A stretch of 64,000 nt of DNA from Desmodesmus armatus. Its lineage: Eukaryota > Chlorophyta > Chlorophyceae > Sphaeropleales > Scenedesmaceae. Of this stretch, positions 34,263 to 61,252 are shown piece after piece; the first letter of the stretch is position 1, and each line of letters opens with the position of its first letter. Location: positions 278,501 through 342,500 of the forward strand of contig VIIQ02000559.1 in assembly GCA_007449985.2 (NCBI GenBank), written 5' to 3'. Under the pieces are notes generated by a model. It was given only the letters and a program-made list of their open reading frames with translations. It had not been told where the DNA came from and did not search any database. Made by a program: the position numbers and the translations under genes.

Positions 34263-35937
34263 TCTGCTGGTGCAACTCAGCGCCGTTGCTGCTGCTGCTG
34301 TTGGTGCATCTCAGCGATGTTGCCGTGCCAGCCCCGCACACACCTGTAAGGCAAATCAGGTAGGTCACATGCATCTTGGACAGTTTGCATTGCAGCTGCC
34401 ACATCCTCCTGCCCAGCACACAAACAAGTGACAAACACATATGAGCAGCAATGGCACAGTTACGGTAACTTCAGACTGAGGGAGGTGAATTGTCTAGCAT
34501 GCACCCCCCACCCCCACCCCCACCCCCACCCCCACCCCCACCCCCACCCCCACCCCCACCCCCACCCCCACCCCCACCCCCACATCCTCCTGCACAGCAA
34601 CCAGAAAGACAAACTCGCTTTGTTTGCCACCACCGCACTCAATGTTGCAAAGGTCAGCCAGCCTCAGCAACTTGGCAGCAGCTGCCACATATTATGTGTG
34701 TGTGAGGGGGGGGAGACTTGCAGGAATACGTAGGACCGTTCCCTGCGCAGCCTTCGGGGCATCTCAGTCCGGCACTGACTCAGCAGCTGTTGTCGCTGCA
34801 GTCACAACGCCACTTCAGCAGGCGCACCAAGCAGCTGACAGTCTGTCCACAAGACCCAGTCGGTAGCTTCAGCTGCATGTTCTACGACTGCAAGGATATT
34901 TATGTGTAATTCACCCATTCCGCACGCTCGCTATGGCCTGGACAACACATGTCCTGCTGCGACAGGACACCTGATGTGCAAAGCACACATGTACATCTTG
35001 CCCGCATGCCCTCATGTGCGCACCTCAATCGCATAGTGTGCAATCAACCTGCAGCTGTCCCAGAGATCTGCCTCTGCCCCAAATCGCTCCTGCTCCTGCT
35101 GCCCTTCACCCCTGTACTCCTCAACCACCACTGACTGAGCCCCAAACCCTAGCAGGGCATCTGACAGCAGCTCTGCTTGCAAGCCTGGTATGGGGCCTAA
35201 TGAGACCCGTTGACTGGTGGTTAGGCTGGTGGGGTCGCCACCACCACTGCTGCTGCTGCTGGTGTTTGGGCTGCTGGGGATGTTGGCAGGGGACAGGAAG
35301 ACAGCACGGCACAGCACGGCACGGCACAGCAAGGGACGATGCAGGAAAGCACAGCAGAGCAGGGAGTGTGGAGAAGCGGGAGTATTGCTGAATGGTGCTG
35401 CTCGACTATGTGGCTGTTGCTGCCAAGGCAGCAAACCATAGGTGGGTCGCACGTGTTGCAATGCGCGATGGACGCAGTGGGTGGGTGTAGGTGTGAAGGG
35501 ACATGAGGGCGAGACTCTAGCTAAGGTCCTGGAATATGAAAGCCAAAAACATGCAAATAGTTGAGTTCAACAGACCTGAATGCGGCTGCACAGAAAGCTT
35601 GTAGTCCTGCAGGGGCGATGCCTGCGCCTAGAAGCTCTGACGAGCAGCCAAACACAGTGCGGGTCGCCTGCTCTGACACGAAAGTGCTGCCGCTGCTGAT
35701 GCGCCGGTTGACTGCTGCTGTGGTGACGTATTCCTGGCTACTGCTGCTGCTGCTACTGCTGCTGTCCTGAGTGTAGCCACTGTTTCCTGCTGCTGCCGAT
35801 GCCGCAGGAAAGTGCTGACTTTGTCGGCGAATAGCCCTGGTCAGGACGCCCCTTGGCTGGATCATGGTCTGCATGGGCTTTTGAAGCACTGATGTACGGT
35901 GCAGCATGTTGTGGATGCATGCATTCAGCACTTGCAT
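30857..35937 (-). CDS. prmA: PrmA-type ribosomal protein L11 lysine methyltransferase, organellar
   Basis: Exons on minus: 35937-35576, 35273-35024, 34408-34344, 33942-33879, 33617-33524, 33117-33010, 32379-32219, 31354-31211 and 30973-30857 (TGA), all in phase: 1365 nt, 454 residues. The family methylates ribosomal protein L11 with S-adenosylmethionine. Family signatures occur in order: [16 protein letters not shown] (N-terminal substrate domain), [40 protein letters not shown], the SAM-binding [33 protein letters not shown], then [17 protein letters not shown] and [13 protein letters not shown], ending with [11 protein letters not shown]. The ~90 residues before the first conserved motif are Arg/Ser/Gln-rich with almost no acid at the start, fitting a chloroplast or mitochondrial transit peptide. 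Only the donor at 35575 (GTCTGT) is weak. Introns carry three partial exon copies. Confidence 0.92.
31427..31495 (-). repeat. Echo of the PrmA exon 8 start
   Basis: On minus it repeats the acceptor region and the codons for LQQGA..LFDLVM of exon 31354-31211, with changes, then runs into a CTG array. It lies upstream in the sense direction. Confidence 0.8.
31990..32083 (-). repeat. Echo of the PrmA exon 7 end
   Basis: On minus it codes [20 protein letters not shown] and SDPDPMLQ and ends at a donor GTGGGTG. It is a near copy of the second half of exon 32379-32219, lies downstream of it, and keeps the same frame. Confidence 0.88.
32549..32618 (-). repeat. Echo of the PrmA exon 7 start
   Basis: On minus, CCTGCAG is followed by the codons for [20 protein letters not shown], the first half of exon 32379-32219, then diverges. 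It lies upstream of the real exon. Confidence 0.85.
33280..33330. repeat. G-run cluster in a PrmA intron
   Basis: Repeated GGGGTGGGG and GGGGGC runs; a further G run lies at 33469-33488. Several G-quadruplex arrangements are possible. Confidence 0.8.
33357..33412 (-). repeat. Dispersed ~57-base repeat, copy 2 (inverted)
   Basis: Reverse complement of 25907-25965, in an intron of the PrmA gene. Confidence 0.85.
34503..34582. repeat. (CCCCCA)n hexanucleotide array
   Basis: About 13 units in the intron upstream of PrmA exon 34408-34344. Just beyond it CATCCTCCTGCACAGCA resembles the acceptor edge of that exon (CATCCTCCTGCCCAGCA), so the array may have grown from a local duplication. Confidence 0.9.
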
Positions 35938-43516: not shown

Positions 43517-43530
43517 CTGCACGCAGCAAG

Positions 43531-46500
43531 GAAGAAGAATGAAGGTGTTACACGGGTTTCTCAAGCAACTACGTTGCAACTGAACCCAGCCACGGATGGA
43601 CACAACCAGCACGGAAGGGGGCCGTACGCAGCAAGGAATGAATGAATGAAGGTGTTACACGGGTTTCTCAAGCAACTACGTTGCAACTGAACCCAGCCAC
43701 GGATGGACACAACCAGCACGGAAGGGGGCCGTTCGGACAAACCCCACCATCAAAAGCAGCAAGGAATGAATGAATGAAGGTGTTACACGGGTTTCTCAAG
43801 CAACTACGTTGCAATTGAACCCAGCCACGGATGGACACAACCAGCACGGAAGGGGGCCGTTCGGACAAACCCCACCATCAAAAGCTTGTCACGCACACTC
43901 AGTGTGCTTCCAGATTGCAGCAAGAATGAATGAAGGTGTTACACGGGTTTCTCAAGCAACTACGTTGCAACTGAACCCAGCCACGGATGGACACAACCAG
44001 CACGGAAGGGGGCCGTTCGGACAAACCCCACCATCAAAAGCTTGTCACGCACACTCAGTGTGCTTCCAGATTGCGAACACAGAGATATAATACACTGGAA
44101 GGACTGAGTGGCGCCAACGGCACTGCTTCTCGCACCTGCAGGGTTGCGACAAGAAAGGGCGGACGGAACAGAAAACAGCGAACACACAGCTGCGAGCCAC
44201 AAAACACTCCCACATGTTGCAGTGGGCGCACGTGGGGGCAACTTCACCGACACCACCAGAAACTGCACTGTTCACAAGCCAGCAGGATAGAAGTCACACA
44301 GCAGCCAGCAACTCACATGTCACCACATGCAGAAGCTCAATGCCTAACTACCCGCAAACCGTTGCCTCCTGACAGCACCACATGCCATGCAATGAAAGGC
44401 TGCTGTGTGAGCGCAAGCCCCTGCGCCCGCTTAGTGATGATTGCAGAAACCGCAAAGTCAGCCAAGACGCGCCAAAACTCCCCAACAGCAGCACGCCCTG
44501 CAATGCGCTCTACCGTCAGCAGAGGCAACGCAGGACCTTCTGCTGCCACAGCCCACGCCACTCTGCGGCCGAAGTCAACAGCACCGATGCCAGCCAGACA
44601 CACCATGTCCCACACAATATGATGCAACCGGGGATGAGGTTTCACCCCCATCCACAAAGCTGCACACTGCAGGCCGCGGTCAGCAGCCAACCAAGGGGGG
44701 CGTCGCCCACCCGGTGAGCTCGCAACTGCCCCTCAATCATTGATTGCAGCAAGAAGAAGAAGAATGAAGGTGTTACACGGGTTTCTCAAGCAACTACGTA
44801 CGTTGATTGCAGCAAGGAATGAATGAATGAATGAAGGTGTTACACGGGATTGCAGCAAGAATGAATGAATGAAGGTGTTACACGGGTTTCTCAAGCAACT
44901 ACGTTGCAACTGAACCCAGCCACGGATGGACACAACCAGCACGGAAGGGGGCCGTTCGGACAAACCCCACCATCAAAAGATTGCAGCAAGAATGAATGAA
45001 TGAAGGTGTTACACGGGTTTCTCAAGCAACTACGTTGCAACTGAACCCAGCCACGGATGGACACAACCAGCACGGAAGGGGGCCGTTCGGACAAACCCCA
45101 CCATCAAAAGCTTGTCACGCACACTCAGTGCGCTTCCAGATTGCGAACACAGAGATATAATACACTGGAAGGACTGAATGGCGCCAACGGCACTGCTTCT
45201 CGCACCTGCAGGGTTGCGACAAGAAAGGGCGGACGGAACAGAAAACAGCGAACACACAGCTGCGAGCCACAAAACACTCCCACATGTTGCAGTGGGCGCA
45301 CGTGGGGGCAACTTCACCGACACCACCAGTCGCTGCACTGTTCACAAGCCAGCAGGATAGAAGTCACACAGCAGCCAGCAACTCACATGTCACCACATGC
45401 AGAAGCTCAATGCCCAACTACCCGCAAACCGTTGCCTCCTGACAGCACCACATGCCATGCAATGAAAGGCTGCTGTGTGAGCGCAAGCCCCTGCGCCCGC
45501 TTAGGGATGATTGCAGAAACCGCAAAGTCAGCCAAGACGCGCCAAAACTCCCCAACAGCAGCACGCCCTGCAATGCGCTCTACCGTCAGCAGAGGCAACG
45601 CAGGACCTTCTGCTGCCACAGCCCACGCCACTCTGCGGCCGAAGTCAACAGCACCGATGCCAGCCAGACACACCATGTCCCACACAATATGATGCAACCG
45701 GGGATGAGGTTTCACCCCCATCCACAAAGCTGCACACTGCAGGCCGCGGTCAGCAGCCAACCAAGGGGGGGCGTCGCCCACCCGGTGAGCTCGCAACTGC
45801 CCCTCAATCATTGATTGCAGCAAGAAGAAGAAGAATGAAGGTGTTACACGGGTTTCTCAAGCAACTACGTACGTTGATTGCAGCAAGGAATGAATGAATG
45901 AATGAAGGTGTTACACGGGATTGCAGCAAGAATGAATGAATGAAGGTGTTACACGGGTTTCTCAAGCAACTACGTTGCAACTGAACCCAGCCACGGATGG
46001 ACACAACCAGCACGGAAGGGGGCCGTTCGGACAAACCCCACCATCAAAAGATTGCAGCAAGAATGAATGAATGAAGGTGTTACACGGGTTTCTCAAGCAA
46101 CTACGTTGCAACTGAACCCAGCCACGGATGGACACAACCAGCACGGAAGGGGGCCGTTCGGACAAACCCCACCATCAAAAGCTTGTCACGCACACTCAGT
46201 GTGCCTCCAGATTGCGAACACAGAGATATAATACACTGGAAGGACTGAATGGCGCCAACGGCACTGCTTCTCGCACCTGCAGCAAGAATGAAGGTGTTAC
46301 ACGGGTTTCTCAAGCAACTACGTTGCAACTGAACCCAACCTGCAGCAAGAAGAAGAATGAATGTGTTCCATGGGTTTCTCAAGCAACTACGTTGCAACTG
46401 AACCCAGCCACGGATGGACACAACCAGCACGGAAGGGGGCCGTTCGGACAAACCCCACCATCAAAAGCTTGTCACGCACACTCAGTGCGCTTCCAGATTG

Positions 46501-48038
46501 CGAACACAGAGATATAATACACTGGAAGGACTGAATGGCGCCAACGGCACTGCTTCTCGCACCTGCAGGGTTGCGACAAGAAAGGGCGGACGGAACAGAA
46601 AACAGCGAACACACAGCTGCGAGCCACAAAACACTCCCACATGTTGCAGTGGGCGCACGTGGGGGCAACTTCACCGACACCACCAGAAACTGCACTGTTC
46701 ACAAGCCAGCAGGATAGAAGTCACACAGCAGCCAGCAACTCACATGTCACCACATGCAGAAGCTCAATGCCCAACTACCCGCAAACCGTTGCCTCCTGAC
46801 AGCACCACATGCCATGCAATGAAAGGCTGCTGTGTGAGCGCAAGCCCCTGCGCCCGCTTAGGGATGATTGCAGAAACCGCAAAGTCAGCCAAGACGCGCC
46901 AAAACTCCCCAACAGCAGCACGCCCTGCAATGCGCTCTACCGTCAGCAGAGGCAAGCAGGACCTTCTGCTGCCACAGCCCACGCCACTCTGCGGCCGAAG
47001 TCAACAGCACCGATGCCAGCCAGACACACCATGTCCCACACAATATGATGCAACCGGGGATGAGGTTTCACCCCCATCCACAAAGCTGCACACTGCAGGC
47101 CGCGGTCAGCAGCCAACCAAGGGGGGGCGTCGCCCACCCGGTGAGCTCGCAACTGCCCCTCAATCATTGATTGCAGCAAGAAGAAGAAGAATGAAGGTGT
47201 TACACGGGTTTCTCAAGCAACTACGTACGTTGATTGCAGCAAGGAATGAATGAATGAATGAAGGTGTTACACGGGATTGCAGCAAGAATGAATGAATGAA
47301 GGTGTTACACGGGTTTCTCAAGCAACTACGTTGCAACTGAACCCAGCCACGGATGGACACAACCAGCACGGAAGGGGGCCGTTCGGACAAACCCCACCAT
47401 CAAAAGATTGCAGCAAGAATGAATGAATGAAGGTGTTACACGGGTTTCTCAAGCAACTACGTTGCAACTGAACCCAGCCACGGATGGACACAACCAGCAC
47501 GGAAGGGGGCCGTTCGGACAAACCCCACCATCAAAAGCTTGTCACGCACACTCAGTGTGCCTCCAGATTGCGAACACAGAGATATAATACACTGGAAGGA
47601 CTGAATGGCGCCAACGGCACTGCTTCTCGCACCTGCAGCAAGAATGAAGGTGTTACACGGGTTTCTCAAGCAACTACGTTGCAACTGAACCCAACCTGCA
47701 GCAAGAAGAAGAATGAATGTGTTCCATGGGTTTCTCAAGCAACTACGTTGCAACTGAACCCAGCCACGGATGGACACAACCAGCACGGAAGGGGGCCGTT
47801 CGGACAAACCCCACCATCAAAAGCTTGTCACGCACACTCAGTGCGCTTCCAGATTGCGAACACAGAGATATAATACACTGGAAGGACTGAATGGCGCCAA
47901 CGGCACTGCTTCTCGCACCTGCAGGGTTGCGACAAGAAAGGGCGGACGGAACAGAAAACAGCGAACACACAGCTGCGAGCCACAAAACACTCCCACATGT
48001 TGCAGTGGGCGCACGTGGGGGCAACTTCACCGACACCA
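43531..48038 (-). mobile_element. LINE sub-array with GCAGCAAG junctions
   Basis: Copies begin after GCAGCAAG at 43530, 43635, 43763, 43924 and so on. The larger ones (about 43926-44744, 44993-45815, 46362-47171) include the C-terminal ORF. A block is repeated with offsets of 1,071 and 1,356 bases (44742, 45813, 47169), so segmental duplication added to the insertions. Confidence 0.85.
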
Positions 48039-49486
48039 CCATCAAAAGAATGAATGAATGAAGGTGTTACACGGGTTTCTTACCATCAAAAGTGAATGAA
48101 TGAATGAAGGTGTTACACGGGTTTCTCAAGCAACTACGTTGCAACTGAACCCAGCCACGGATGGACACAACCAGCACGGAAGGGGGCCGTTCGGACAAAC
48201 CCCACCATCAAAAGAATGAATGAAGGTGTTTCACGGGTTTCTCAAGCAACTACGTTGCAACTGAACCCAGCCACGGATGGACACAACCAGCACGGAAGGG
48301 GGCCGTTCGGACAAACCCCACCATCAAAAGCTTGTCACGCACACTCAGTGTGCTTCCAGATTGCGAACACAGAGATATAATACACTGGAAGGACTGAATG
48401 GCGCCAACGGCACTGCTTCTCGCACCTGCAGGGTTGCGACAAGAAAGGGCGGACGGAACAGAAAACAGCGAACACACAGCTGCGAGCCACAAACACTCCC
48501 ACATGTTGCAGTGGGCGCACGTGGGGGCAACTTCACCGACACCACCATCAAAAGAATGAATGAATGAAGGTGTTACACGGGTTTCTCAAGCAACTACGTT
48601 GCAACTGGACCCAGCCACGGAATGAATGAAGGTGTTACACGGGTTTCTCAAGCAACTACGTTGCAACTGAACCCAGCCACGGATGGACACAACCAGCAAG
48701 GAAGGGGGCCGTTCGGACAAACCCCACCATCAAAAGCTTGTCACACACACTCAGTTTGCTTCCAGATTGCGAACACAGAGATATAATACACTGGAAGGAC
48801 TGAATGGGACCAACGGCACTGCTTCTCGCACCTGCAGGGTTGCGACAAGAAAGGGCGGACGGAACAGAAAACAGCGAACACACAGCTGCGAGCCACAAAA
48901 CACTCCCACCCAGCCACGGATGGACACAACCAGCACGGAAGGGGGCCGTTCGGACAAACCCCACCATCAAAAGCTTGTCACGCACACTCACCATCAAAAG
49001 AATGAATGAATGAAGGTGTTACACGGGTTTCTCAAGCAACTACGTTGCAACTGAACCCACCATCAAAAGAAATGAATGAATGAAGGTGTTACACGGGTTT
49101 CTCAAGCAACTACGTTGCAACTGAACCCAGCCACGGATGGACACAACCAGCACGGAAGGGGGCCGTTCGGACAAACCCCACCATCAAAAGCTTGTCACGC
49201 ACACTCAGTGTGCTTCCAGATTGCGAACACAGAGATATAATACACTGGAAGGACTGAATGGCGCCAACGGCACTGCTTCTCGCACCTGCAGGGTTGCGAC
49301 AAGAAAGGGCGGACGGAACAGAAAACAGCGAACACACAGCTGCGAGCCACAAAACACTCCCACATGTTGCAGTGGGCGCACGTGGGGGCAACTTCACCGA
49401 CACCACCAGTCGCTGCACTGTTCACAAGCCAGCAGGATAGAAGTCACACAGCAGCCAGCAACTCACATGTCACCACATGCAGAAGC

Positions 49487-50908
49487 TCAATGCCTAACTA
49501 CCCGCAAACCGTTGCCTCCTGACAGCACCACATGCCATGCAATGAAAGGCTGCTGTGTGAGCGCAAGCCCCTGCGCCCGCTTAGGGATGATTGCAGAAAC
49601 CGCAAAGTCAGCCAAGACGCGCCAAAACTCCCCAACAGCAGCACGCCCTGCAATGCGCTCTACCGTCAGCAGAGGCAACGCAGGACCTTCTGCTGCCACA
49701 GCCCACGCCACTCTGCGGCCGAAGTCAACAGCACCGATGCCAGCCAGACACACCATGTCCCACACAATATGATGCAACCGGGGATGAGGTTTCACCCCCA
49801 TCCACAAAGCTGCACACTGCAGGCCGCGGTCAGCAGCCAACCAAGGGGGGGCGTCGCCCACCCGGTGAGCTCGCAACTGCCCCTCAATCTCCGCCCGCAC
49901 CGCCCCTGCAACAGGACACTCCCAACAATGGTGCTGTACACCGGGCTCAGCAGCCCCACATGCTACACAAGAGGTGCCTGTGTGCATGCGCTGGGCCGTA
50001 GGGAACGCGTCGAGGGTGAGCCGCCATGCAGCCTCCTTGTGCTCATTAGGCACACGCAGCTTCCACCACCGCCGAAGCACCCGAGTGACCTCGGGCAATT
50101 GGCCCACAATTGGCTGCAGCATATCAACAGACAACACCCTCTGACGGAAGGCAGCATGCCTGTCAGCAATGGCTGACAGCGCATCCAAGGATTGACACTG
50201 GGTAGCTAGCGACACAGTGAGGGCCTCAAGCTTCACCACATCCCCATTGCGAGTATGCCAGCCCAGATCAGCACACACCCTGTCCCTAGCTGCGGTAAGC
50301 TGAGCCTCCGAAACGGCCGGCAGCCGCCCGGATGGCCTACCCCGCAGCACTGCACGTGCTGCATCCTGCCACGCACTAGGGATGGCCGCGACCAACACAG
50401 CCAACTCCTCCCTAGCCACCACCATGTTAGCATACCTAGGGCGATGCTGCAACACAGGGTCCCACACATGCATCCTGTATGCCTCCTCCCTTGCCCCCAG
50501 GTCAGGAATGGAACAGATAGCCTCAACCAGCTGCAACCAATGCAGCGCCTGCCCTGCACATTGCAGCTGGGTGAGGCCCAACAAGTCAGGCACCACAAAC
50601 TCCAACCCCACCATCACTTGCCGCTGCTGTCCATACCAGTCCCACTGCTCCCTCTGCGCCACCACCGGATTGGACCACAATGGGACATAGTAACACCACG
50701 GGCCGGGCTGGACCGGGTTAGCGCCCACATGGCGAATATACGGCAGAGCCCTGATGCCAAGGGCAAAAGCACGCAAGGGGTCTGGCAACAGCTGGCCCCC
50801 AGCGTCCCTGAACAACCGACCCTTGTCACACAAGGCCAAGCCCCAATAACCCCACCAGGCACCACCGGCACATGGTGCTGCAACAGCTCCCTGCTGACTG
50901 CAACCCAA
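49487..50908 (-). CDS. LINE ORF2 fragment: C-terminal domain with zinc-knuckle-like motif
   Basis: 473 codons that continue the RT frame after a one-base shift near 50870. A CVACGAAEPGVQHHCWECP motif (C-x2-C..H-x-C-x2-C type) at about residue 320 matches the finger found after the RT of many plant and algal LINEs, which helps bind the RNA or target. It ends in NGLRVVRH and a stop, then a ~420-base 3' UTR and the tail. The same C-terminus is present in about ten of the shorter copies. Confidence 0.88.
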   Translation of the reverse strand: MGCSQQGAVAAPCAGGAWWGYWGLALCDKGRLFRDAGGQLLPDPLRAFALGIRALPYIRHVGANPVQPGPWCYYVPLWSNPVVAQREQWDWYGQQRQVMVGLEFVVPDLLGLTQLQCAGQALHWLQLVEAICSIPDLGAREEAYRMHVWDPVLQHRPRYANMVVAREELAVLVAAIPSAWQDAARAVLRGRPSGRLPAVSEAQLTAARDRVCADLGWHTRNGDVVKLEALTVSLATQCQSLDALSAIADRHAAFRQRVLSVDMLQPIVGQLPEVTRVLRRWWKLRVPNEHKEAAWRLTLDAFPTAQRMHTGTSCVACGAAEPGVQHHCWECPVAGAVRAEIEGQLRAHRVGDAPPWLAADRGLQCAALWMGVKPHPRLHHIVWDMVCLAGIGAVDFGRRVAWAVAAEGPALPLLTVERIAGRAAVGEFWRVLADFAVSAIIPKRAQGLALTQQPFIAWHVVLSGGNGLRVVRH

Positions 50909-52806
50909 GGCTTGCGAGCATCCCCCACCAACACTTGCACTGCCTCACAAGCCAGGCGAGAGTGAAGGTGGGCCCGCACTGGCAGCAGACCCAAACCTCC
51001 CTCCCTAGGGTGGGCCTCCATACACGCCCTGGGCACCCCTGGTGCCCGTCGCTGATCATCATCAGGGCCCAGGCCAGCATCAACAAGGGCAGAGGCCCAT
51101 TTGATTAGTTGCCTGGCATGCTCAGCTGGCAGGGCCCCAGCAAAGTGTGCATGATACAACAGTGTGGAGATAGCGTACCCATTGAACGCAAAAGCCCGGC
51201 CAAACATGGACAGGTCAGGGATGCGGCTGATCTTCTGCACCCGTTCCCGCACAATGCTCAGCCGATGCTCCCAATCCACTCCAACCACCCCCACACTGCC
51301 AAAGACAACCCCCAGGCTTTTGCAGGTGTCACGCACCGCCATGCCTGCCACAGGGGCAGGATCCACCACCGCTTGGCCCAAAGGCAACAGTTGACACTTG
51401 GGTGGCTGCACCCGCTGGCCTGTGGCATCCCCATACACCGACAAATGCTCCAACAGGCCAGAAACATCAGCCTCCCCAGGCAGGAGGGGCTCCACATCAT
51501 CCGCATACTGTGTGGCGACAAGCCTGCCGGCTGCGACATCAATACCAATGCCACACTGCTTGAGATGGCAGAGCAACGCCTGCCCTGCAAACAGGTACAT
51601 CAGGGGTGCCAGAGGGCAGCCCTGCCTAACCCCAGCACCACACCGAAAGAAAGAGCTCTGAAAGCCATTGACAACTGCACATGTCAGAGTGTCTGTCAAC
51701 AGCAGCTTCATCCACTGCAGAAACCCGGTACCCACCCCAAGGGCCTCCCCAGCTGCAAACAGAAACTCCCTTGACACAGTGTCATAAGCCTTCCTGAAGT
51801 CCAGGAAAGCAGCTATGGCTGTTTGGTGGCGGGCACGCAGCACCTGGGGCAGCAGCTGCAGCAGCCGCACACTATCCCCTATGTGCCGATGCTGCAAAAA
51901 AGCACACTGCGCTGGATCGATCATGACCCCCGCCACTTGCAACAACCTGTTGGCCAGTAACTTGGCCATAAGACGGTAATCATAGTTAAGTAATTGAATG
52001 GGGCGATAAGCATCCACATTGGTGTGCACCCCACCAGGTTTCAGCACTGGCACGACCGCCCCATCAAGAAACCCCGGTGGGCACTGCTGTGTTGCCCCAA
52101 CGGCCGAGTACAGTTTGGCCAGGATGGGGGCAAGCTGCTGTCGGTACCGCCTGAACAGTTCCCCAGGAATACCGTCCACCCCCGGAGCCTTGCCAGGCGC
52201 TGTACGCAGGATGGCCCGCTCTACCTCCTCAACTGACACCGATGCACTCCCCAGCTCAGCAGCTTGCTCGGCCGTCAGCCGCTGGCTGTGCTGTGCCATG
52301 GCCTGCAGCACCGCCTGCTGTGCTGCAGGCTGCACCTGCGGAGTTGTGCTGACCTCTGCATACCGGCGTCCCACAATGCTGGCCAACCCCACCCCACCCA
52401 CCACCAAATGACCCGACCCAGGTGCGTGCAGCCCAGCAATGAACGATGCTCCTTGGCTAGGCCGCAACATCTTGGTCATGACAGGATTAGGCCGCTCCCC
52501 CAGATGCACCCACTGCTGCCGCCTACGCTGCCGCAATACTTCCTCCTCCTGGGTGAGCAGGCTTGCAAGGCAAGAGGAGGCATCCTGCAGTTCGGTCACG
52601 GCTGCCTGCACCTGTGCCCCATCCTGGCACTGTGCCAACCGCTGCCGTGCTGCCTGCACTGCACCCCATGCTTCCTTTCTGCGGGCTGCCGACCCCTGAT
52701 TGGCCCGCCGGGCTTTGGCTTCCCGGTTGAGGGCCTGAACCTGGAGCCGCAACCGCTGCTTGAATGATGACCACCCCACTACCATAGCTAGCGGGTCAGA
52801 GGGCAT
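50614..52806 (-). CDS. LINE ORF2 fragment: reverse transcriptase
   Basis: 730 codons, non-functional on its own. RT motifs occur in order: KAPGVDGIPGELFR (finger), AFLDFRKAYDTVSREF (motif A with the first catalytic Asp), RQGCPLAPLMYLFAG (motif B) and ATQYADDVEPLL (motif C, YADD). Residues 1-170 are an Arg/Gln-rich linker that usually follows the endonuclease. Reading in this frame is meaningful to about 50870, after which the true sequence continues in the frame of the overlapping 49487-50908 segment; the switch lies at the C-rich stretch 50838-50875. The first ATG is only where truncation left it. Confidence 0.93.
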   Translation of the reverse strand: MPSDPLAMVVGWSSFKQRLRLQVQALNREAKARRANQGSAARRKEAWGAVQAARQRLAQCQDGAQVQAAVTELQDASSCLASLLTQEEEVLRQRRRQQWVHLGERPNPVMTKMLRPSQGASFIAGLHAPGSGHLVVGGVGLASIVGRRYAEVSTTPQVQPAAQQAVLQAMAQHSQRLTAEQAAELGSASVSVEEVERAILRTAPGKAPGVDGIPGELFRRYRQQLAPILAKLYSAVGATQQCPPGFLDGAVVPVLKPGGVHTNVDAYRPIQLLNYDYRLMAKLLANRLLQVAGVMIDPAQCAFLQHRHIGDSVRLLQLLPQVLRARHQTAIAAFLDFRKAYDTVSREFLFAAGEALGVGTGFLQWMKLLLTDTLTCAVVNGFQSSFFRCGAGVRQGCPLAPLMYLFAGQALLCHLKQCGIGIDVAAGRLVATQYADDVEPLLPGEADVSGLLEHLSVYGDATGQRVQPPKCQLLPLGQAVVDPAPVAGMAVRDTCKSLGVVFGSVGVVGVDWEHRLSIVRERVQKISRIPDLSMFGRAFAFNGYAISTLLYHAHFAGALPAEHARQLIKWASALVDAGLGPDDDQRRAPGVPRACMEAHPREGGLGLLPVRAHLHSRLACEAVQVLVGDARKPWVAVSRELLQHHVPVVPGGVIGAWPCVTRVGCSGTLGASCCQTPCVLLPLASGLCRIFAMWALTRSSPARGVTMSHCGPIRWWRRGSSGTGMDSSGK

Positions 52807-52823
52807 GGCTGCACCATCAAAAG

Positions 52824-54320
52824 AATGAATGAATGAAGGTGTTACACGGGTTTCTCAAGCAACTACGTTGCAACTGAACCCAGCCAAGGATGGACACAAC
52901 CAGCACGGAAGGGGGCCGTTCGGACAAACCCCACCATCAAAAGCTTGTCACTCACACTCAGTGTGCTTCCAGATTGCGAACACAGAGATATAATACACTG
53001 GAAGGACTGAATGGCGCCAACGGCACTGCTTCTCGCACCTGCAGGGTTCCATCAAAAGAATGAATGAAGGTGTTACACGGGTTTCTCAAGCAACTACGTT
53101 GCAACTGAACCCAGCCACGGATGGACACAACCAGCACGGAAGGGGGCCGTTCGGACAAACCCCACCATCAAAAGCTTGTCACGCACACTCAGTGTGCTTC
53201 CATCAAAAGGAATGAATGAAGGTGTTACACGGGTTTCCTTCCATCAAAAGAAGAAGAAGAAGAAGGGGTTACAGGGCGACACACGCAGCTACGCTTCCAT
53301 CAAAAGGAATGAATGAATGAAGGTGTTACACGGGTTTCTCAAGCAACTACGTTGCAACTTCCATCAAAAGAATGAATGAATGAAGGTGTTACACGGGTTT
53401 CTCAAGCAACTACGTTGCAACTGAACCCAGCCACGGATGGACACAACCAGTACGGAAGGGGGCCGTTCGGACAAACCCCACCATCAAAAGCTTGTCACGC
53501 ACACTCAGTGTGCTTCCAGATTGCGAACACAGAGATATAATACACTGGAAGGACTAAATGGCGCCAACGGCACTGCTTCTCGCACCTGCAGGGTTGCGAT
53601 AAGAAAGGGCGGACGGAACAGAAAACAGCGAACACACAGCTGCGAGCCACAAACCACTCCCACATGTTGCAGTGGGCGTACGTGGGGGCAACTTCACCGA
53701 CACCACCGGTCGCTGCACTGTTCACAAGCCAGCAGAACAGAAGTCACACAGCAGCCAACAACTCACATGTCAACACATGCAGACGCTCAATGCCTAACTA
53801 CTCGCAAACCGTTGCCTCCTGACAGCACAACATGCCATGCAATGAAAGGCTGCTGTGTGAGCGCAAGCCCCTGCGCCCGCTTAGGGATGATTGCAGAAAC
53901 CGCAAAGTCAGCCAAGACGCGCCAAAACGCCTTCCATCAAAAATGAATGAATGAAGGTGTTACACGGGTTTCTCAAGCAACTACGTTGCAACTGAACCCA
54001 GCCACGGATGGACACAACCAGTACGGAAGGGGGCCGTTCGGACAAACCCCACCATCAAAAGCTTGTCACGCACACTCAGTGTGCTTCCAGATTGCGAAAA
54101 CAGAGATATAATACACTGGAAGGACTAAATGGTGCCAACTTCCATCAAAAGATGAATGAATGAAGGTGTTACACGGGTTTCTCAAGCAACTACGTTGCAA
54201 CTGAACCCAGCCACGGATTCCTTCCATCAAAAGAATGAATGAAGGTGTTACACGGGTTTCTCAAGCAACTACGTTGCAACTGAACCCAGCCACGGATGGA
54301 CACAACCAGCCCATCAAAAG
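52824..54320 (-). mobile_element. LINE sub-array of short copies, CCATCAAAAG junctions
   Basis: About ten copies of 30 to 560 bases, most joined through (CTT)CCATCAAAAG. Some tails are (AAG)n instead of (AATG)n (53251-53262). The copy at about 53371-53935 reaches into the ORF. Confidence 0.85.
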
Positions 54321-57300
54321 ATGAATGAAGGTGTTACACGGGTTTCTCAAGCAACTACGTTGCAACTGAACCCAGCCACGGATGGACACAACCAGCACGG
54401 AAGGGGGCCGTTCGGACAAACCCCACCATCAAAAGCTTGTCACGCACACTCAGTGTGCTTCCAGATTGCGAACACAGAGATATAATACACTGGAAGGACT
54501 GAATGGCGCCAACGGCACTGCTTCTCGCACCTGCAGGGTTGCGACAAGAAAGGGCGGACGGAACAGAAAACAGCGAACACACAGCTGCGAGCCACAAAAC
54601 ACTCCCACATGTTGCAGTGGGCGCACGTGGGGGCAACTTCACCGACACCACCAGTCGCTGCACTGTTCACAAGCCAGCAGGATAGAAGTCACACAGCAGC
54701 CAGCAACTCACATGTCACCACATGCAGAAGCTCAATGCCTAACTACCCGCAAACCGTTGCCTCCTGACAGCACCACATGCCATGCAATGAAAGGCTGCTG
54801 TGTGAGCGCAAGCCCCTGCGCCCGCTTAGGGATGATTGCAGAAACCGCAAAGTCAGCCAAGACGCGCCAAAACTCCCCAACAGCAGCACGCCCTGCAATG
54901 CGCTCTACCGTCAGCAGAGGCAACGCAGGACCTTCTGCTGCCACAGCCCACGCCACTCTGCGGCCGAAGTCAACAGCACCGATGCCAGCCAGACACACCA
55001 TGTCCCACACAATATGATGCAACCGGGGATGAGGTTTCACCCCCATCCACAAAGCTGCACACTGCAGGCCGCGGTCAGCAGCCAACCAAGGGGGGGCGTC
55101 GCCCACCCGGTGAGCTCGCAGCTGCCCCTCAATCTCCGCCCGCACCGCCCCTGCAACAGGACACTCCCAACAATGGTGCTGTACACCGGGCTCAGCAGCC
55201 CCACATGCTACACAAGAGGTGCCCATCAAAAGAATGAATGAAGGTGTTACACGGGTTTCTCAAGCAACTACGTTGCAACTGAACCCAGCCACGGATCATC
55301 AAAAGAATGAAGGTGTTACACGGGATCATCAAAAGAATGAATGAATGAAGGTGTTACACGGGTTTCTCAAGCAACTACGTTGCAACTGAACCCAGCCACG
55401 GATGGACACAACCAGCACGGAAGGGGGCCGTTCGGACAAACCCCACCATCAAAAGCTTGTCACGCACACTCAGTGTGCTTCCAGATTGCGAACACAGAGA
55501 TATAATACACTGGAAGGACTGAATGGCGCCAACGGCACTGCTTCTCGCACCTGCAGGGTTGCGACAAGAAAGGGCGGACGGAACAGAAAACAGCGAACAC
55601 ACAGCTGCGAGCCACAAAACACTCCCACATGTTGCAGTGGGCGCACGTGGGGGCAACTTCACCGACACCACCAGTCGCTGCACTGTTCACAAGCCAGCAG
55701 GATAGAAGTCACACAGCAGCCAGCAACTCACATGTCACCACATGCAGAAGCTCAATGCCTAACTACCCGCAAACCGTTGCCTCCTGACAGCACCACATGC
55801 CATGCAATGAAAGGCTGCTGTGTGAGCGCAAGCCCCTGCGCCCGCTTAGTGATGATTGCAGAAACCGCAAAGTCAGCCAAGACGCGCCAAAACTCCCCAA
55901 CAGCAGCACGCCCTGCAATGCGCTCTACCGTCAGCAGAGGCAACGCAGGACCTTCTGCTGCCACAGCCCACGCCACTCTGCGGCCGAAGTCAACAGCACC
56001 GATGCCAGCCAGACACACCATGTCCCACACAATATGATGCAACCGGGGATGAGGTTTCACCCCCATCCACAAAGCTGCACACTGCAGGCCGCGGTCAGCA
56101 GCCAACCAAGGGGGGGCGTCGCCCACCCGGTGAGCTCGCAGCTGCCCCTCAATCTCCGCCCGCACCGCCCCTGCAACAGGACACTCCCAACAATGGTGCT
56201 GTACACCGGGCTCAGCAGCCCCACATGCTACACAAGAGGTGCCCATCAAAAGAATGAATGAAGGTGTTACACGGGTTTCTCAAGCAACTACGTTGCAACT
56301 GAACCCAGCCACGGATCATCAAAAGAATGAAGGTGTTACACGGGATCATCAAAAGAATGAATGAATGAAGGTGTTACACGGGTTTCTCAAGCAACTACGT
56401 TGCAACTGAACCCAGCCACGGATGGACACAACCAGCACGGAAGGGGGCCGTTCGGACAAACCCCACCATCAAAAGCTTGTCACGCACACTCAGTGTGCTT
56501 CCAGATTGCGAACACAGAGATATAATACACTGGAAGGACTGAATGGCGCCAACGGCACTGCTTCTCGCACCTGCAGGGTTGCGACAAGAAAGGGCGGACG
56601 GAACAGAAAACAGCGAACACACAGCTGCGAGCCACAAAACACTCCCACATGTTGCAGTGGGCGCACGTGGGGGCAACTTCACCGACACCACCAGTCGCTG
56701 CACTGTTCACAAGCCAGCAGGATAGAAGTCACACAGCAGCCAGCAACTCACATGTCACCACATGCAGAAGCTCAATGCCTAACTACCCGCAAACCGTTGC
56801 CTCCTGACAGCACCACATGCCATGCAATGAAAGGCTGCTGTCTGAGCGCAAGCCCCTGCGCCCGCTTAGGGATGATTGCAGAAACCGCAAAGTCAGCCAA
56901 GACGCGCCAAAACTCCCCAACAGCAGCACGCCCTGCAATGCGCTCTACCGTCAGCAGAGGCAACGCAGGACCTTCTGCTGCCACAGCCCACGCCACTCTG
57001 CGGCCGAAGTCAACAGCACCGATGCCAGCCAGACACACCATGTCCCACACAATATGATGCAACCGGGGATGAGGTTTCACCCCCATCCACAAAGCTGCAC
57101 ACTGCAGGCCGCGGTCAGCAGCCAACCAAGGGGGGGCGTCGCCCACCCGGTGAGCTCGCAGCTGCCCCTCAATCTCCGCCCGCACCGCCCCTGCAACAGG
57201 ACACTCCCAACAATGGTGCTGTACACCGGGCTCAGCAGCCCCACATGCTACACAAGAGGTGCCCATCAAAAGAATGAATGAAGGTGTTACACGGGTTTCT

Positions 57301-58655
57301 CAAGCAACTACGTTGCAACTGAACCCAGCCACGGATCATCAAAAGAATGAAGGTGTTACACGGGATCATCAAAAGAATGAATGAATGAAGGTGTTACACG
57401 GGTTTCTCAAGCAACTACGTTGCAACTGAACCCAGCCACGGATGGACACAACCAGCACGGAAGGGGGCCGTTCGGACAAACCCCACCATCAAAAGCTTGT
57501 CACGCACACTCAGTGTGCTTCCAGATTGCGAACACAGAGATATAATACACTGGAAGGACTGAATGGCGCCAACGGCACTGCTTCTCGCACCTGCAGGGTT
57601 GCGACAAGAAAGGGCGGACGGAACAGAAAACAGCGAACACACAGCTGCGAGCCACAAAACACTCCCACATGTTGCAGTGGGCGCACGTGGGGGCAACTTC
57701 ACCGACACCACCAGTCGCTGCACTGTTCACAAGCCAGCAGGATAGAAGTCACACAGCAGCCAGCAACTCACATGTCACCACATGCAGAAGCTCAATGCCT
57801 AACTACCCGCAAACCGTTGCCTCCTGACAGCACCACATGCCATGCAATGAAAGGCTGCTGTCTGAGCGCAAGCCCCTGCGCCCGCTTAGGGATGATTGCA
57901 GAAACCGCAAAGTCAGCCAAGACGCGCCAAAACTCCCCAACAGCAGCACGCCCTGCAATGCGCTCTACCGTCAGCAGAGGCAACGCAGGACCTTCTGCTG
58001 CCACAGCCCACGCCACTCTGCGGCCGAAGTCAACAGCACCGATGCCAGCCAGACACACCATGTCCCACACAATATGATGCAACCGGGGATGAGGTTTCAC
58101 CCCCATCCACAAAGCTGCACACTGCAGGCCGCGGTCAGCAGCCAACCAAGGGGGGGCGTCGCCCACCCGGTGAGCTCGCAGCTGCCCCTCAATCTCCGCC
58201 CGCACCGCCCCTGCAACAGGACACTCCCAACAATGGTGCTGTACACCGGGCTCAGCAGCCCCACATGCTACACAAGAGGTGCCCATCAAAAGAATGAATG
58301 AAGGTGTTACACGGGTTTCTCAAGCAACTACGTTGCAACTGAACCCAGCCACGGATCATCAAAAGAATGAAGGTGTTACACGGGATCATCAAAAGAATGA
58401 ATGAATGAAGGTGTTACACGGGTTTCTCAAGCAACTACGTTGCAACTGAACCCAGCCACGGATGGACACAACCAGCACGGAAGGGGGCCGTTCGGACAAA
58501 CCCCACCATCAAAAGCTTGTCACGCACACTCAGTGTGCTTCCAGATTGCGAACACAGAGATATAATACACTGGAAGGACTGAATGGCGCCAACGGCACTG
58601 CTTCTCGCACCTGCAGGGTTGCGACAAGAAAGGGCGGACGGAACAGAAAACAGCG
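54321..58655 (-). repeat. Tandem 1,020-bp units made of three LINE copies
   Basis: The pattern (902-base copy, ~65-base copy, 20-base copy) repeats exactly every 1,020 bases: unit starts at 55224, 56244, 57264 and 58284. Adjacent units share private changes, e.g. TGTGAGCGC to TGTCTGAGC from the third unit on. This shows amplification by unequal exchange or slippage, not independent insertion. Confidence 0.92.
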
Positions 58656-60793
58656 ATCATCAAAAGAATGAATGAAGGTGTTACACGGGTTTCTCAAGCA
58701 ACTACGATCATCAAAAGAAGAAGAAGAAGAAGAAGGGGTTACAGGGCGACACACGCAGCTACGCTGCAACGACACCCAGCATCGGAAGGGAACCAAAGTC
58801 ATCAAAAGAATGAATGAATGAATGAAGGTGTTACACGGGTCAGTCATCAAAAGAAATGAAATGAAGGTGTTACACGGGTTTCTCAAGCAACTACGTTGCA
58901 ACTGAACCCAGCCACGGATGGACACAACCAGCACGGAAGGGGGCCGTTCGGACAAACCCCACCATCAAAAGCTTGTCACAAGTCATCAAAAGAATGAATG
59001 AATGAAGGTGTTACACGGGTTTCTCAAGCAACTACGTTGCAACTGAACCCAGCCACGGATGGACACAACCAGCACGGAAGGGGGCCGTTCGGACAAACCC
59101 CACCATCAAAATGAATGAATGAATGAAGGTGTTACACGGGTTTCTCAAGCAACTACGTTGCAACTGAACCCAGCCACGGATGGACACAACCAGCACGGAA
59201 GGGGGCCGTTCGGACACCATCAAAAGGATGAATGAAGGTGTTACACGGGTTTCTCAAGCAACTACGTTGCAACTGAACCCAGCCACGGATGGACACAACC
59301 AGCACGGAAGGGGGCCGTTCGGACAAACCCCACCATCAAAAGCTTGTCACGCACACTCAGTGTGCTTCCAGATTGCGAACACAGAGATATAATACACTGG
59401 AAGGACTGAATGGCGCCAACGGCACTGCTTCTCGCACCTGCAGGGTTGCGACAAGAAAGGGCGGACGGAACAGAAAACAGCGAACACACAGCTGCGAGCC
59501 ACAAAACACTCCCACATGTTGCAGTGGGCGCACGTGGGGGCAACTTCACCGACACCACCAGTCGCTGCACTGTTCACAAGCCAGCAGGATAGAAGTCACA
59601 CAGCAGCCAGCAACTCACATGTCACCACATGCAGAAGCTCAATGCCTAACTACCCGCAAACCGTTGCCTCCTGACAGCACCACATGCCATGCAATGAAAG
59701 GCTGCTGTCTGAGCGCAAGCCCCTGCGCCCGCTTAGGGATGATTGCAGAAACCGCAAAGTCAGCCAAGACGCGCCAAAACTCCCCAACAGCAGCACGCCC
59801 TGCAATGCGCTCTACCGTCAGCAGAGGCAACGCAGGACCTTCTGCTGCCACAGCCCACGCCACTCTGCGGCCGAAGTCAACAGCACCGATGCCAGCCAGA
59901 CACACCATGTCCCACACAATATGATGCAACCGGGGATGAGGTTTCACCCCCATCCACAAAGCTGCACACTGCAGGCCGCGGTCAGCAGCCAACCAAGGGG
60001 GGCGTCGCCCACCCGGTGAGCTCGCAGCTGCCCCTCAATCTCCGCCCGCACCGCCCCTGCAACAGGACACTCCCAACAATGGTGCTGTACACCGGGCTCA
60101 GCAGCCCCACATGCTACACAAGAGGTGCCTGTGTGCATGCGCTCACACCATCAAAAATGAATGAAGGTGTTACACGGGTTTCTCAAGCAACTACGTTGCA
60201 ACTGAACCCAGCCACGGATGGACACAACCAGCACGGAAGGGGGCCGTTCGGACAAACCCCACCATCAAAAGCTTGTCACGCACACTCAGTGTGCTTCCAG
60301 ATTGCGAACACAGGGATATAATAATCACACCATCAAAAATGAATGAATGAAGGTGTTACACGGGTTTCTCAAGCAACTACGTTGCAACTGAACCCAGCCA
60401 CGGATGGACACAACCAGCACGGAAGGGGGCCGTTCGGACAAACCCCACCATCAAAAGCTTGTCACGCACACTCAGTGTGCTTCCAGATTGCGAACACAGA
60501 GATATAATACACTGGAAGGACTGAATGGCGCCAACGGCACTGCTTCTCGCACCTGCAGGGTTGCGACAAGAAAGGGCGGACGGAACAGAAAACAGCGAAC
60601 ACACAGCTGCGAGCCACAAAACACTTCCACATGTTGCAGTGGGCGCACGTGGGGGCAACTTCACCGACACCATCAAAATGAATGAATGAAGGTGTTACAC
60701 GGGTTTCTCAAGCAACTACGTTGCAACTGAACCCAGCCACGGATGGACACAACCAGCACGGAAGGGGGCCGTTCGGACAAACACCATCAAAAG
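58656..60793 (-). mobile_element. LINE sub-array, right edge
   Basis: Further copies joined by (AG)TCATCAAAAG and ACCATCAAAA(G), including a ~915-base copy at 59228-60142. The last copy is followed by CCATCAAAAG and then unique sequence CTTACCTTTCC, which on minus is a 5' splice site (GAAAG|GTAAG). Confidence 0.85.
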
Positions 60794-61252
60794 CTTACCT
60801 TTCCAAGCACGGGTGTGGAGGAACCGATGTAACCAAGGTAATGAGCAGAGCTTGAGGTGGTCTTTGCATAAAGGGCCGCCGATAGCCCATTACAATATGT
60901 CGGTGGTCTTCAGATCGCAAGGTCTGGGGATCGAATGCTGGCAAAGACACTGGCCAGGCTATGATGTCCGCCCACCCTTGTAGCGGCTTGCAGTGGTGAA
61001 GGGGTTTCGGTGGTTTACCCTTCACGCGTGGTGATACCAAGCTTCGGCTTCGGCAGTTAACTAGGTTTGGAGAGTACCACTATGTGGTGAAAGTATCCAG
61101 TAATGAGGGAATGACAGCACAGTGGCAACATATGCAGCGGCAGTTCCATCTCCCCTTCCCTCCTTAAAAAAAATAAAAAATAAAGGCGCTGCAGCACAAG
61201 CCAAAGGAAGGTGCACCGTTGCAGGCAAGCGCAGCACAAAAGCATTCAGTGC
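60794..61252. other. Unique flank with tRNA-like segment
   Basis: A B-box-like GGATCGAATGC at 60931-60941 inside CAAGGTCTGGGGATCGAATGCTGG suggests a tRNA-derived sequence. On minus, 60869-60799 could be a short first exon (MQRPPQALLITLVTSV..) ending at a GTAAG donor, possibly of the lipase gene. Neither is certain. Confidence 0.35.

Follow-up and report, generated by a model that had tools for sequence, protein, structure and literature searches.

In the green alga Desmodesmus armatus, 5′-truncated LINE copies lie head-to-tail in arrays in which many neighbors are linked by a duplicated target word, and what differs from the R1 and Zepp elements is that the same bond is reused without site specificity. 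With a little more than even confidence, we suggest from the sequence that such an array arises by successive insertions, each 5′ of an earlier copy, the bond then being remembered rather than re-found by sequence. The starting point was a window of 64,000 nucleotides (the whole stretch of DNA analysed), in which 59 5′-truncated copies were called between 43531 and 60796, 57 of them from family 1 and 2 from the related family 2. The features are as follows.

43523..43530, plus strand: outer left border, the first target word GCAGCAAG adjoining the 3′ tail of the leftmost copy
43531..47693, minus strand: first chain, 5′-truncated family-1 LINE copies joined by GCAGCAAG, GATTGCAGCAAG and ACCTGCAGCAAG, containing duplicated units (1071 and 1356 bp)
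47703..48041, minus strand: copy where the word changes; its right end repeats the end of the copy at 48212-48547 (by eye)
48046..60796, minus strand: second chain, copies joined by CATCAAAAG with varying upstream bases
48619..48909, minus strand: copy nested inside another copy, with the word ACCCAGCCAC; the host copy continues at GGATGGACAC
49067..52813, minus strand: longest copy of the window, about 3.7 kb, 5′-truncated, in which a reverse transcriptase (RT) and a weak zf-RVT match occupy two frames that overlap
53248..53295, minus strand: short (TTC)n-tailed copy from a related family, same word
54318..58392, minus strand: four near-identical 1020-bp units of three chained copies apiece, a segmental duplication
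58715..58800, minus strand: second short (TTC)n-tailed copy, same word
60784..60799, plus strand: outer right border, where CCATCAAAAG runs into the downstream flank (CTTACC)

The element runs in sense on the minus strand, its (CATT)n 3′ tail showing as the (GAAT)n on the left of every unit. All family-1 anchors in the window (at most 2 mismatches) lie on one strand, and the opposite strand of the window yielded no called copy from any of the four families. Two linking words are used, GCAGCAAG between 43.5 and 47.7 kb, then CATCAAAAG between 48.0 and 60.8 kb. The copy at 47703..48041 is probably a recombinant join of the two chains, since its right end repeats that of a copy of the second chain. 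Only 43 of the 59 copies are distinct by both borders because of segmental duplications, namely the four 1020-bp units (about 54.3-58.4 kb), which are duplications later than insertion, and the repeats spaced 1071 and 1356 bp (43.9-47.7 kb). An earlier note, made from these letters, had described truncated copies chained by one reused word into an ordered array of one orientation; the chaining and the single strand stand, but there are two words, 9 of the 41 non-identical window junctions have no shared 7-nt word, one copy sits within another, and some units are segmental duplicates. Scanning the window against Rfam and for tRNAs gave no match, and eight open reading frames to the left of the array match no Pfam family. 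Elsewhere in the same assembly, contig C38 carries a form I RuBisCO large chain, at 80-92% to the entries listed, which include Batophora (90%), land plants and Strombomonas.

Judged by its domains, the element is an L1-type non-LTR retrotransposon, with a LINE-kind RT, an APE-type endonuclease and two ORFs all found. The longest window copy carries RVT_1 (E 2.4e-26) and a zf-RVT match (E 8.6e-5) that is under its cut-off, and ends before the endonuclease domain; the best solved relatives of the RT are human LINE-1 ORF2 (E 1.2e-30), ahead of R2 (best 3.5e-17). An APE-type endonuclease lies at the start of ORF2 in another stretch (PF03372, E 1e-9, profile positions 3-225 of 225, L029:68-968), and the two ORFs of a long copy were seen in the adjacent stretches L019 and L029, stop-free over 639 and 1337 codons in one frame. 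By inspection, most copies observed end in (CATT)n and a few have a T run on the given strand, that is, poly(A). An anchor search of the assembly gave 707 matches (at most 2 mismatches) vs. 169 in the reversed control, and part of the 707 were retrieved for analysis; 79 of the first 100 among the matches listed are clustered, and these hundred lie on many contigs, some with copies at several places. Copies with a following copy have a median length of 128 vs. 282 for last copies (p = 0.012, uncorrected) and are not clearly shorter than isolated ones (128 vs. 225, p = 0.11, uncorrected).

Across the assembly we compiled 141 non-identical copy-to-copy junctions from 29 stretches, with identical contexts counted once and loci L001-L008, short stretches around places also present in longer form, excluded from every junction count. 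A word of at least 7 nt in the left flank of a copy is repeated as its right linker at 82 of the 141 junctions vs. 30 of 2820 between-locus controls, leaving 59 junctions without a shared 7-nt word. The linked junctions are spread over 18 stretches on 16 contigs, with word lengths of 7-13 nt in 79 of the 82 (9-11 commonest), and 20 of them connect different families. Element sequence touching 163 distinct family-1 copies has the same orientation on 224 sides and the opposite orientation on none, while 102 sides have no such neighbor. For linkers of 8 nt or less, the shared word reaches at least 2 nt into the end of the left neighbor in 25 of 29 cases and at least 3 nt in 20 of 29, and this overlap indicates that the word is rewritten along the array. 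The same is seen in the window, where the bases upstream of the second word shift along the array (TTCC, CTTCC, GCCC, GGATC, CGATC, AGTC, ACACC), and these seven successive prefixes equal, by eye, the end of the preceding copy.

The words themselves are not fixed. Arrays on other contigs reuse CCTGTGACCT, CCGTCACAA, CTAGTTGCC and CCCTCGCCCT, although some words occur at two loci, such as GCCCCGGG on contigs C1 and C45, inside family-3 copies. Isolated copies are flanked by unrelated duplications, and the 28 targets classed as genomic reach at most 0.51 bit at any position, with a possible weak C/RR preference at the bond (0.33-0.38 bit; here and below a slash marks the bond). With words differing between arrays as well, no fixed target sequence of the R1 kind was found. 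This bears directly on the earlier proposal of target specificity for CCATCAAAAG and on its statement that random duplications elsewhere would speak against it: such duplications do occur and contradict the specificity, but not the chaining, which recurs on other contigs. Two further suggestions of that note were borne out, for the element does carry the word (CACCATCAAAAG/CTTGTCACG, about 100 bp from its own 3′ end), and the copies are linked by a reused target word, which each insertion restores, so that the array can feed itself. In the window CCATCAAAAG (at most 1 mismatch) occurs 70 times vs. 4.65 expected from shuffles (maximum 9 in 100 shuffles), 67 of the 70 lying between 43.7 and 60.8 kb, all on the plus strand. 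The CATCAAAAG word probably originated within an older copy, as the outer right border CACCATCAAAAGCTT equals 15 nt of the element (by eye).

The proposed course of events, in its first steps supported by the sequence, would be a series of separate insertions in which a low-specificity L1-type LINE and related families integrate by target-primed reverse transcription, each leaving a 5′-truncated copy and duplicating roughly 9-13 nt of the target. This duplication would place the target word, T, once more 5′ of the new copy, against the downstream flank, F, and a later copy would enter at the same bond within about one base, its orientation kept. With a linker shorter than the duplication, the end of the left neighbor would rewrite the upstream part of T. 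The last insertion step may leave a fill-in 3′ end or a nick exactly at T/F, where the same or the next particle, with RNA of either family, could prime before sealing. The array would thus grow in order at its 5′ edge, in the window from left to right, and unequal exchange would afterwards duplicate parts of it. That the bond is not re-found by sequence we infer from the difference in T between arrays together with the lack of a strong target consensus, and memory of the bond as the cause of its reuse is inferred likewise. In the second chain the tail starts after ATCAAAA in several phases (GAATGA 14, ATGAAT 3, TGAATG 2, GATGAA 2, GAAGAA 2, and others), which places the nick at the end of T within one base and not at random inside an older tail. 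Put most specifically, a LINE particle would insert serially by reusing the restored 3′ end at T/F, one chance nick thereby becoming an ordered array, a version that we hold tentatively, as a possibility falling well short of even.

In two arrays the bond used at the outer edge is T adjoining the unchanged F. For the direction of growth the sequence gives moderate support. The outer border on C45 has 13 nt in common with the context of its left neighbor vs. 10 with the outermost left flank, and that on C42 matches its neighbor over CCACGCCGTCACAAA, earlier linkers over about 10-12 nt and the outermost left flank over 6 nt (both by eye). The border of L017 (C1) goes against this direction, fitting the outermost left context (10 vs. 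0.4), and most of the 18 borders tabulated are uninformative. Among 65 junctions with a left neighbor and a shared word of at least 7 nt, there are 14 in which the junction's own left context beats every earlier one by at least 3 nt, comprising 8 clean extensions into the neighbor and 6 starts of a new word, homology-assisted cases or repeats. Seven of the 65 go the opposite way, of which three with 30-nt matches were assigned to duplicates or element body and four are unexplained or due to chance. In the full set of 141 junctions, 15 are better fitted by an earlier context, by eye 6 duplicates or element body, 2 template jumps, 2 shifted insertions and 5 chance or element-body matches. These tests replaced a comparison with all contexts per locus, which duplicates and element-body matches swamped, many junctions being better fitted elsewhere.

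The best surviving alternative is tethered self-targeting of the Zepp type, where the particle is drawn to existing copies, the endonuclease picks the locally best bond and the duplication restores it, so that insertions would be independent and spread over time. We regard this as unlikely, yet deserving to be kept in view: nested LINE clusters are known from green algae (as far as the published descriptions used here go), the anchors among the matches listed are strongly clustered, insertions into copy bodies do occur, and the weak preference at the bond may be real. A local preference should, however, strike the same position in identical bodies, whereas the nine insertions into copy bodies lie at nine different positions (by eye), and the targets have no strong consensus. 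A remembered nick does not explain these nine insertions. As to timing, the evidence for insertion bursts is mixed, the 70T variant clustering by locus at p = 0.055 with the window and 0.0026 without it, after 21 copies had been removed by hand as duplicates.

New copies might instead enter at the boundary between the target and the (GAAT)n tail of an older copy, for example by pairing of the RNA tail with the DNA tail. Such targeting would yield a precisely used boundary, whatever the target, and a single orientation, and the L010 copies do sit between a truncated end and a tail. It also predicts the same sequences for internal linkers, which fit attraction by the 5′ side of one copy or by the 3′ tail of the next alike, so that there the two cannot be told apart. 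The outer borders of C45 and C42, however, carry bases of the left neighbor where no tail follows, and we judge this route improbable. Formation by recombination or assembly alone would account for the 1020-bp units and the 1071- and 1356-bp repeats and is very improbable, given 43 copies distinct by both borders, each running from the tail to varied truncation points, and word-linked junctions on 15 further contigs. Specificity of the endonuclease for the CCATCAAAAG of the element's own 3′ UTR would fit the second chain and the word inside the element but is scarcely credible and, as a general rule, contradicted by the other arrays' words, the unrelated duplications of isolated copies and the lack of a strong consensus.

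Three variants were also disfavored. A nick at random inside the old tail conflicts with a tail phase that varies while the target bond is fixed to about one base; one continuous reaction recopying the same overhang, with upstream bases of the word that derive from the preceding copy (partly by eye); and an RNA flank acting as guide, as discussed for R1, with the linked junctions between different families.

The close precedents that we noticed in the literature are R1 tandem arrays and nested Zepp clusters, and the pattern itself may already be published. HeT-A and TART likewise form head-to-tail telomere arrays of truncated non-LTR elements in one orientation, but they attach to chromosome ends and are not known to make target duplications, whereas duplications link the copies here. 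A centromeric LINE has reportedly been described in poplar. In an account of Drosophila 28S R1 arrays, copies are spaced by a 14-bp target duplication, and its authors infer that an R1 already present in a 28S gene receives further insertions within the duplication at its 5′ end (Stage and Eickbush, 2009; PMC2718515). The target duplication between copies is shared with our arrays; R1, by that account, has one rDNA target and inserted units averaging two to three elements in the richest species (PMC2718515), whereas our arrays vary in target, consist mostly of short 5′-truncated copies and can combine several families. Zepp of Coccomyxa/Chlorella and the Zepp-like elements of Chlamydomonas are green-alga LINEs in nested clusters of mostly 3′ ends, resembling the clustered, mostly 5′-truncated copies found here, and the parts of these descriptions that we draw on contain no reused target words (PMC3446292, PMC8226300). 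Zepp and Zepp-like elements are characterized by one centromeric cluster per chromosome, a trait to be set beside the many contigs with anchors, some at several places, among the first 100 of our matches listed. Zepp and L1-1_CR are tabulated with (A)n ends (PMC3747384), unlike the (CATT)n of most of our copies, and no protein named Zepp or Coccomyxa was among the 120 matches listed in our protein search.

Of the two halves of LINE insertion, the closing one (second strand, fill-in and sealing of the 5′ border) is less well understood, and arrays that reuse one bond, with the order of events partly readable from their linkers, offer natural data on it. They further suggest how nested LINE clusters could arise, including those at green-alga centromeres, for which the accounts drawn on here describe only a targeting of existing copies. 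If true, serial insertion would need no target specificity, and arrays of abortive and longer copies of several RNAs would be a natural recorder of retrotransposition.

In the window (source G000:C530:278501-342500, from an assembly of 115.8 Mb in 831 contigs), we called 59 non-LTR retrotransposon copies at 43531-60796, 57 belonging to the main LINE family (family 1) and two to a related one (family 2), and 43 of the 59 are distinct by both borders. The sense strand of the element is the minus strand; read on the plus strand, a family-1 copy opens with its (CATT)n 3′ tail in complement, continues with GAAGGTGTTACACGGG or a near match, and runs to a truncation point 16 to about 3700 nt further along. 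The longest window copy encodes a reverse transcriptase that, among proteins of solved structure, is nearest to LINE-1 ORF2 proteins. On contig C304 a copy of greater length carries stop-free stretches of 639 and 1337 codons together with an Exo_endo_phos endonuclease domain. Where the listed relatives of the LINE protein name a eukaryote, it is a green alga, e.g., Chlorella, Gonium, or Chlamydomonas, and the RuBisCO large chain encoded in this assembly reaches 92% identity to green-lineage proteins; the host is therefore most likely a green alga. At 96 of 25457 sites (0.377%) a copy departs from the majority, and the arrays therefore look young. Many family-1 copies end within about 20 nt of one another (R96-R117), and CCATCAAAAG in the 3′ UTR is among these clustered end points, reflecting either a pause of reverse transcription or annealing to an identical target word. 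Other repeats in the window are listed below.

6950-7507: 155-bp tandem repeat, 3.6 copies
34505-34583: perfect (CCCCCA) run, 13.2 copies
60864-61171: dispersed repeat, about 300 bp long, to the right of the array; identity 97, 96, and 89% in the fetched stretches L011, L018, and L026 (L026 over 150 bp)

The earlier note held that copies are chained through one reused target word. The linkage stands, since most consecutive window copies are joined by a word that also precedes the left-hand copy of the pair, but the single word does not: two words are used, GCAGCAAG as far as 47.7 kb and CATCAAAAG from 48.0 kb onward, and a shared word (left flank of a copy repeated as its right linker) of 7 nt is missing at 9 of the 41 non-identical window junctions. 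The word changes in a copy whose right end repeats the right end of a neighbor, which we read as a recombination join, and parts of the array were later duplicated, the periods being 1020 bp (four units), 1071 bp, and 1356 bp. Words succeed one another as CACCATC, TTCCATC, CTTCCATC, GCCCATC, GGATCATC, CGATCATC, AGTCATC, and ACACCATC, where each of the seven new prefixes is identical, by eye, to the terminal bases of the preceding copy. The tails of the second chain start in several phases after ATCAAAA, which places the reused bond at the word's end, to within about one base.

A genome search with a 16-base anchor from the element 3′ end, allowing up to two mismatches, gave 707 matches vs. 169 for the reversed control. 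Among the first 100 exact matches listed, 79 were clustered (neighbors within 4 kb), with the same orientation in 60 of 62 neighboring pairs. Junctions were sampled from the window and 28 stretches chosen from places listed in genome searches, counting four families with tails (CATT)n and (TTC)n, plus (CAGT)n and (CACT)n on the strand read. This sample held 141 non-identical copy-to-copy junctions, and at 82 of them, spread over 18 stretches and 16 contigs, the left flank was repeated as the right linker over 7 nt or more, compared with 30 of 2820 between-locus controls. Element sequence adjoining 163 distinct family-1 copies had the same orientation on 224 sides and the opposite on none, while 102 sides were without. 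The (CAGT)n- and (CACT)n-tailed families, both LINE-like, were seen in stretches L013, L016-L018, L020, L024, L031, and others (e.g., L024:3233-3905), and in L024 the reused word GAGGC links copies, as judged by eye.

Reused target words by contig
C45: CCTGTGACCT
C42: CCGTCACAA
C7: CCCTCGCCCT
C35: CACGGTGCCC
C830: CTAGTTGCC
C224: TTTACGCCGT
C97: TAGTAG-like
C1 and C45, inside family-3 copies: GCCCCGGG

Outer borders with a word numbered 35, and a 12-base test gave 28 genomic targets, including a few still touching element sequence, as in L013, L019, and L025. In these 28 no position exceeds 0.51 bit, and the surroundings of the bond (C|RR) hold 0.33-0.38 bit, some of which may stem from the assignment of tail-like bases. 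Because the words differ between contigs and no strong target consensus is seen, the enzyme specific for CCATCAAAAG that had been proposed is neither needed nor supported. The shared word measures 7-13 nt in 79 of the 82 linked junctions, and as tail-like bases were trimmed, the true duplication may be slightly longer.

Junctions without a shared word may be explained by template jumps. At some of them runs of T represent a poly(A) tail, and family-1 copies with such a run (poly(A) in sense) adjoining the 3′ end are as follows.

L019:5212-5240
L018 near 6345, plus strand
L014 near 4825 and 6355, minus-strand coordinates

In several family-1 cases the T run lies directly behind another truncated copy, as expected of template jumps onto polyadenylated RNA.

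Of the 29 junctions with linkers no longer than 8 nt, 25 have a word that reaches at least 2 nt into the left neighbor's end, and in 20 it reaches at least 3 nt. A stricter count over 65 junctions is less clear: a copy's own left context beats every earlier context by at least 3 nt in 14 (8 clean), and 7 point in the opposite direction, three of these through 30-nt matches attributed to duplicates or element body. When all 141 junctions are taken, 15 agree better with an earlier context; judging by eye, we put these down to duplicates, template jumps, shifted insertions, and chance. In C45 and C42 the word at the outer right border carries the neighbor's bases, whereas at the array border in L017 the outermost left context fits instead; most of the 18 outer borders tabulated carry no information either way. 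As the most likely history we favor copies inserting one after another, each 5′ of the newest; insertion at internal linkers, beside an older tail, is also possible.

The same arrangement, a target duplication between copies, is described for Drosophila R1 in PMC2718515, where copies are separated by a 14-bp duplication and the arrays are attributed to new elements entering the duplication at the 5′ end of those already resident. However, the R1 enzyme knows its sequence, while for the LINE here sequence recognition seems excluded, and we therefore favor a remembered bond as the cause of site reuse: the last fill-in would leave a primer end or nick at T|F, the bond between the target word and its unchanged downstream flank, and the next insertion would use it again. 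Different families are joined at 20 of the 82 linked junctions, so the memory is not in one RNA. Weak support for the remembered bond comes from the low divergence, from the shorter copies followed by another (median 128 vs. 282 for last copies, p = 0.012; vs. 225 for isolated copies, p = 0.11; both uncorrected), and from the clustering of the 70T variant by array (p = 0.0026 without the window, 0.055 with it). Nine insertions into the bodies of older copies, at nine positions by eye, suggest that some additional tethering or strand choice is also involved.
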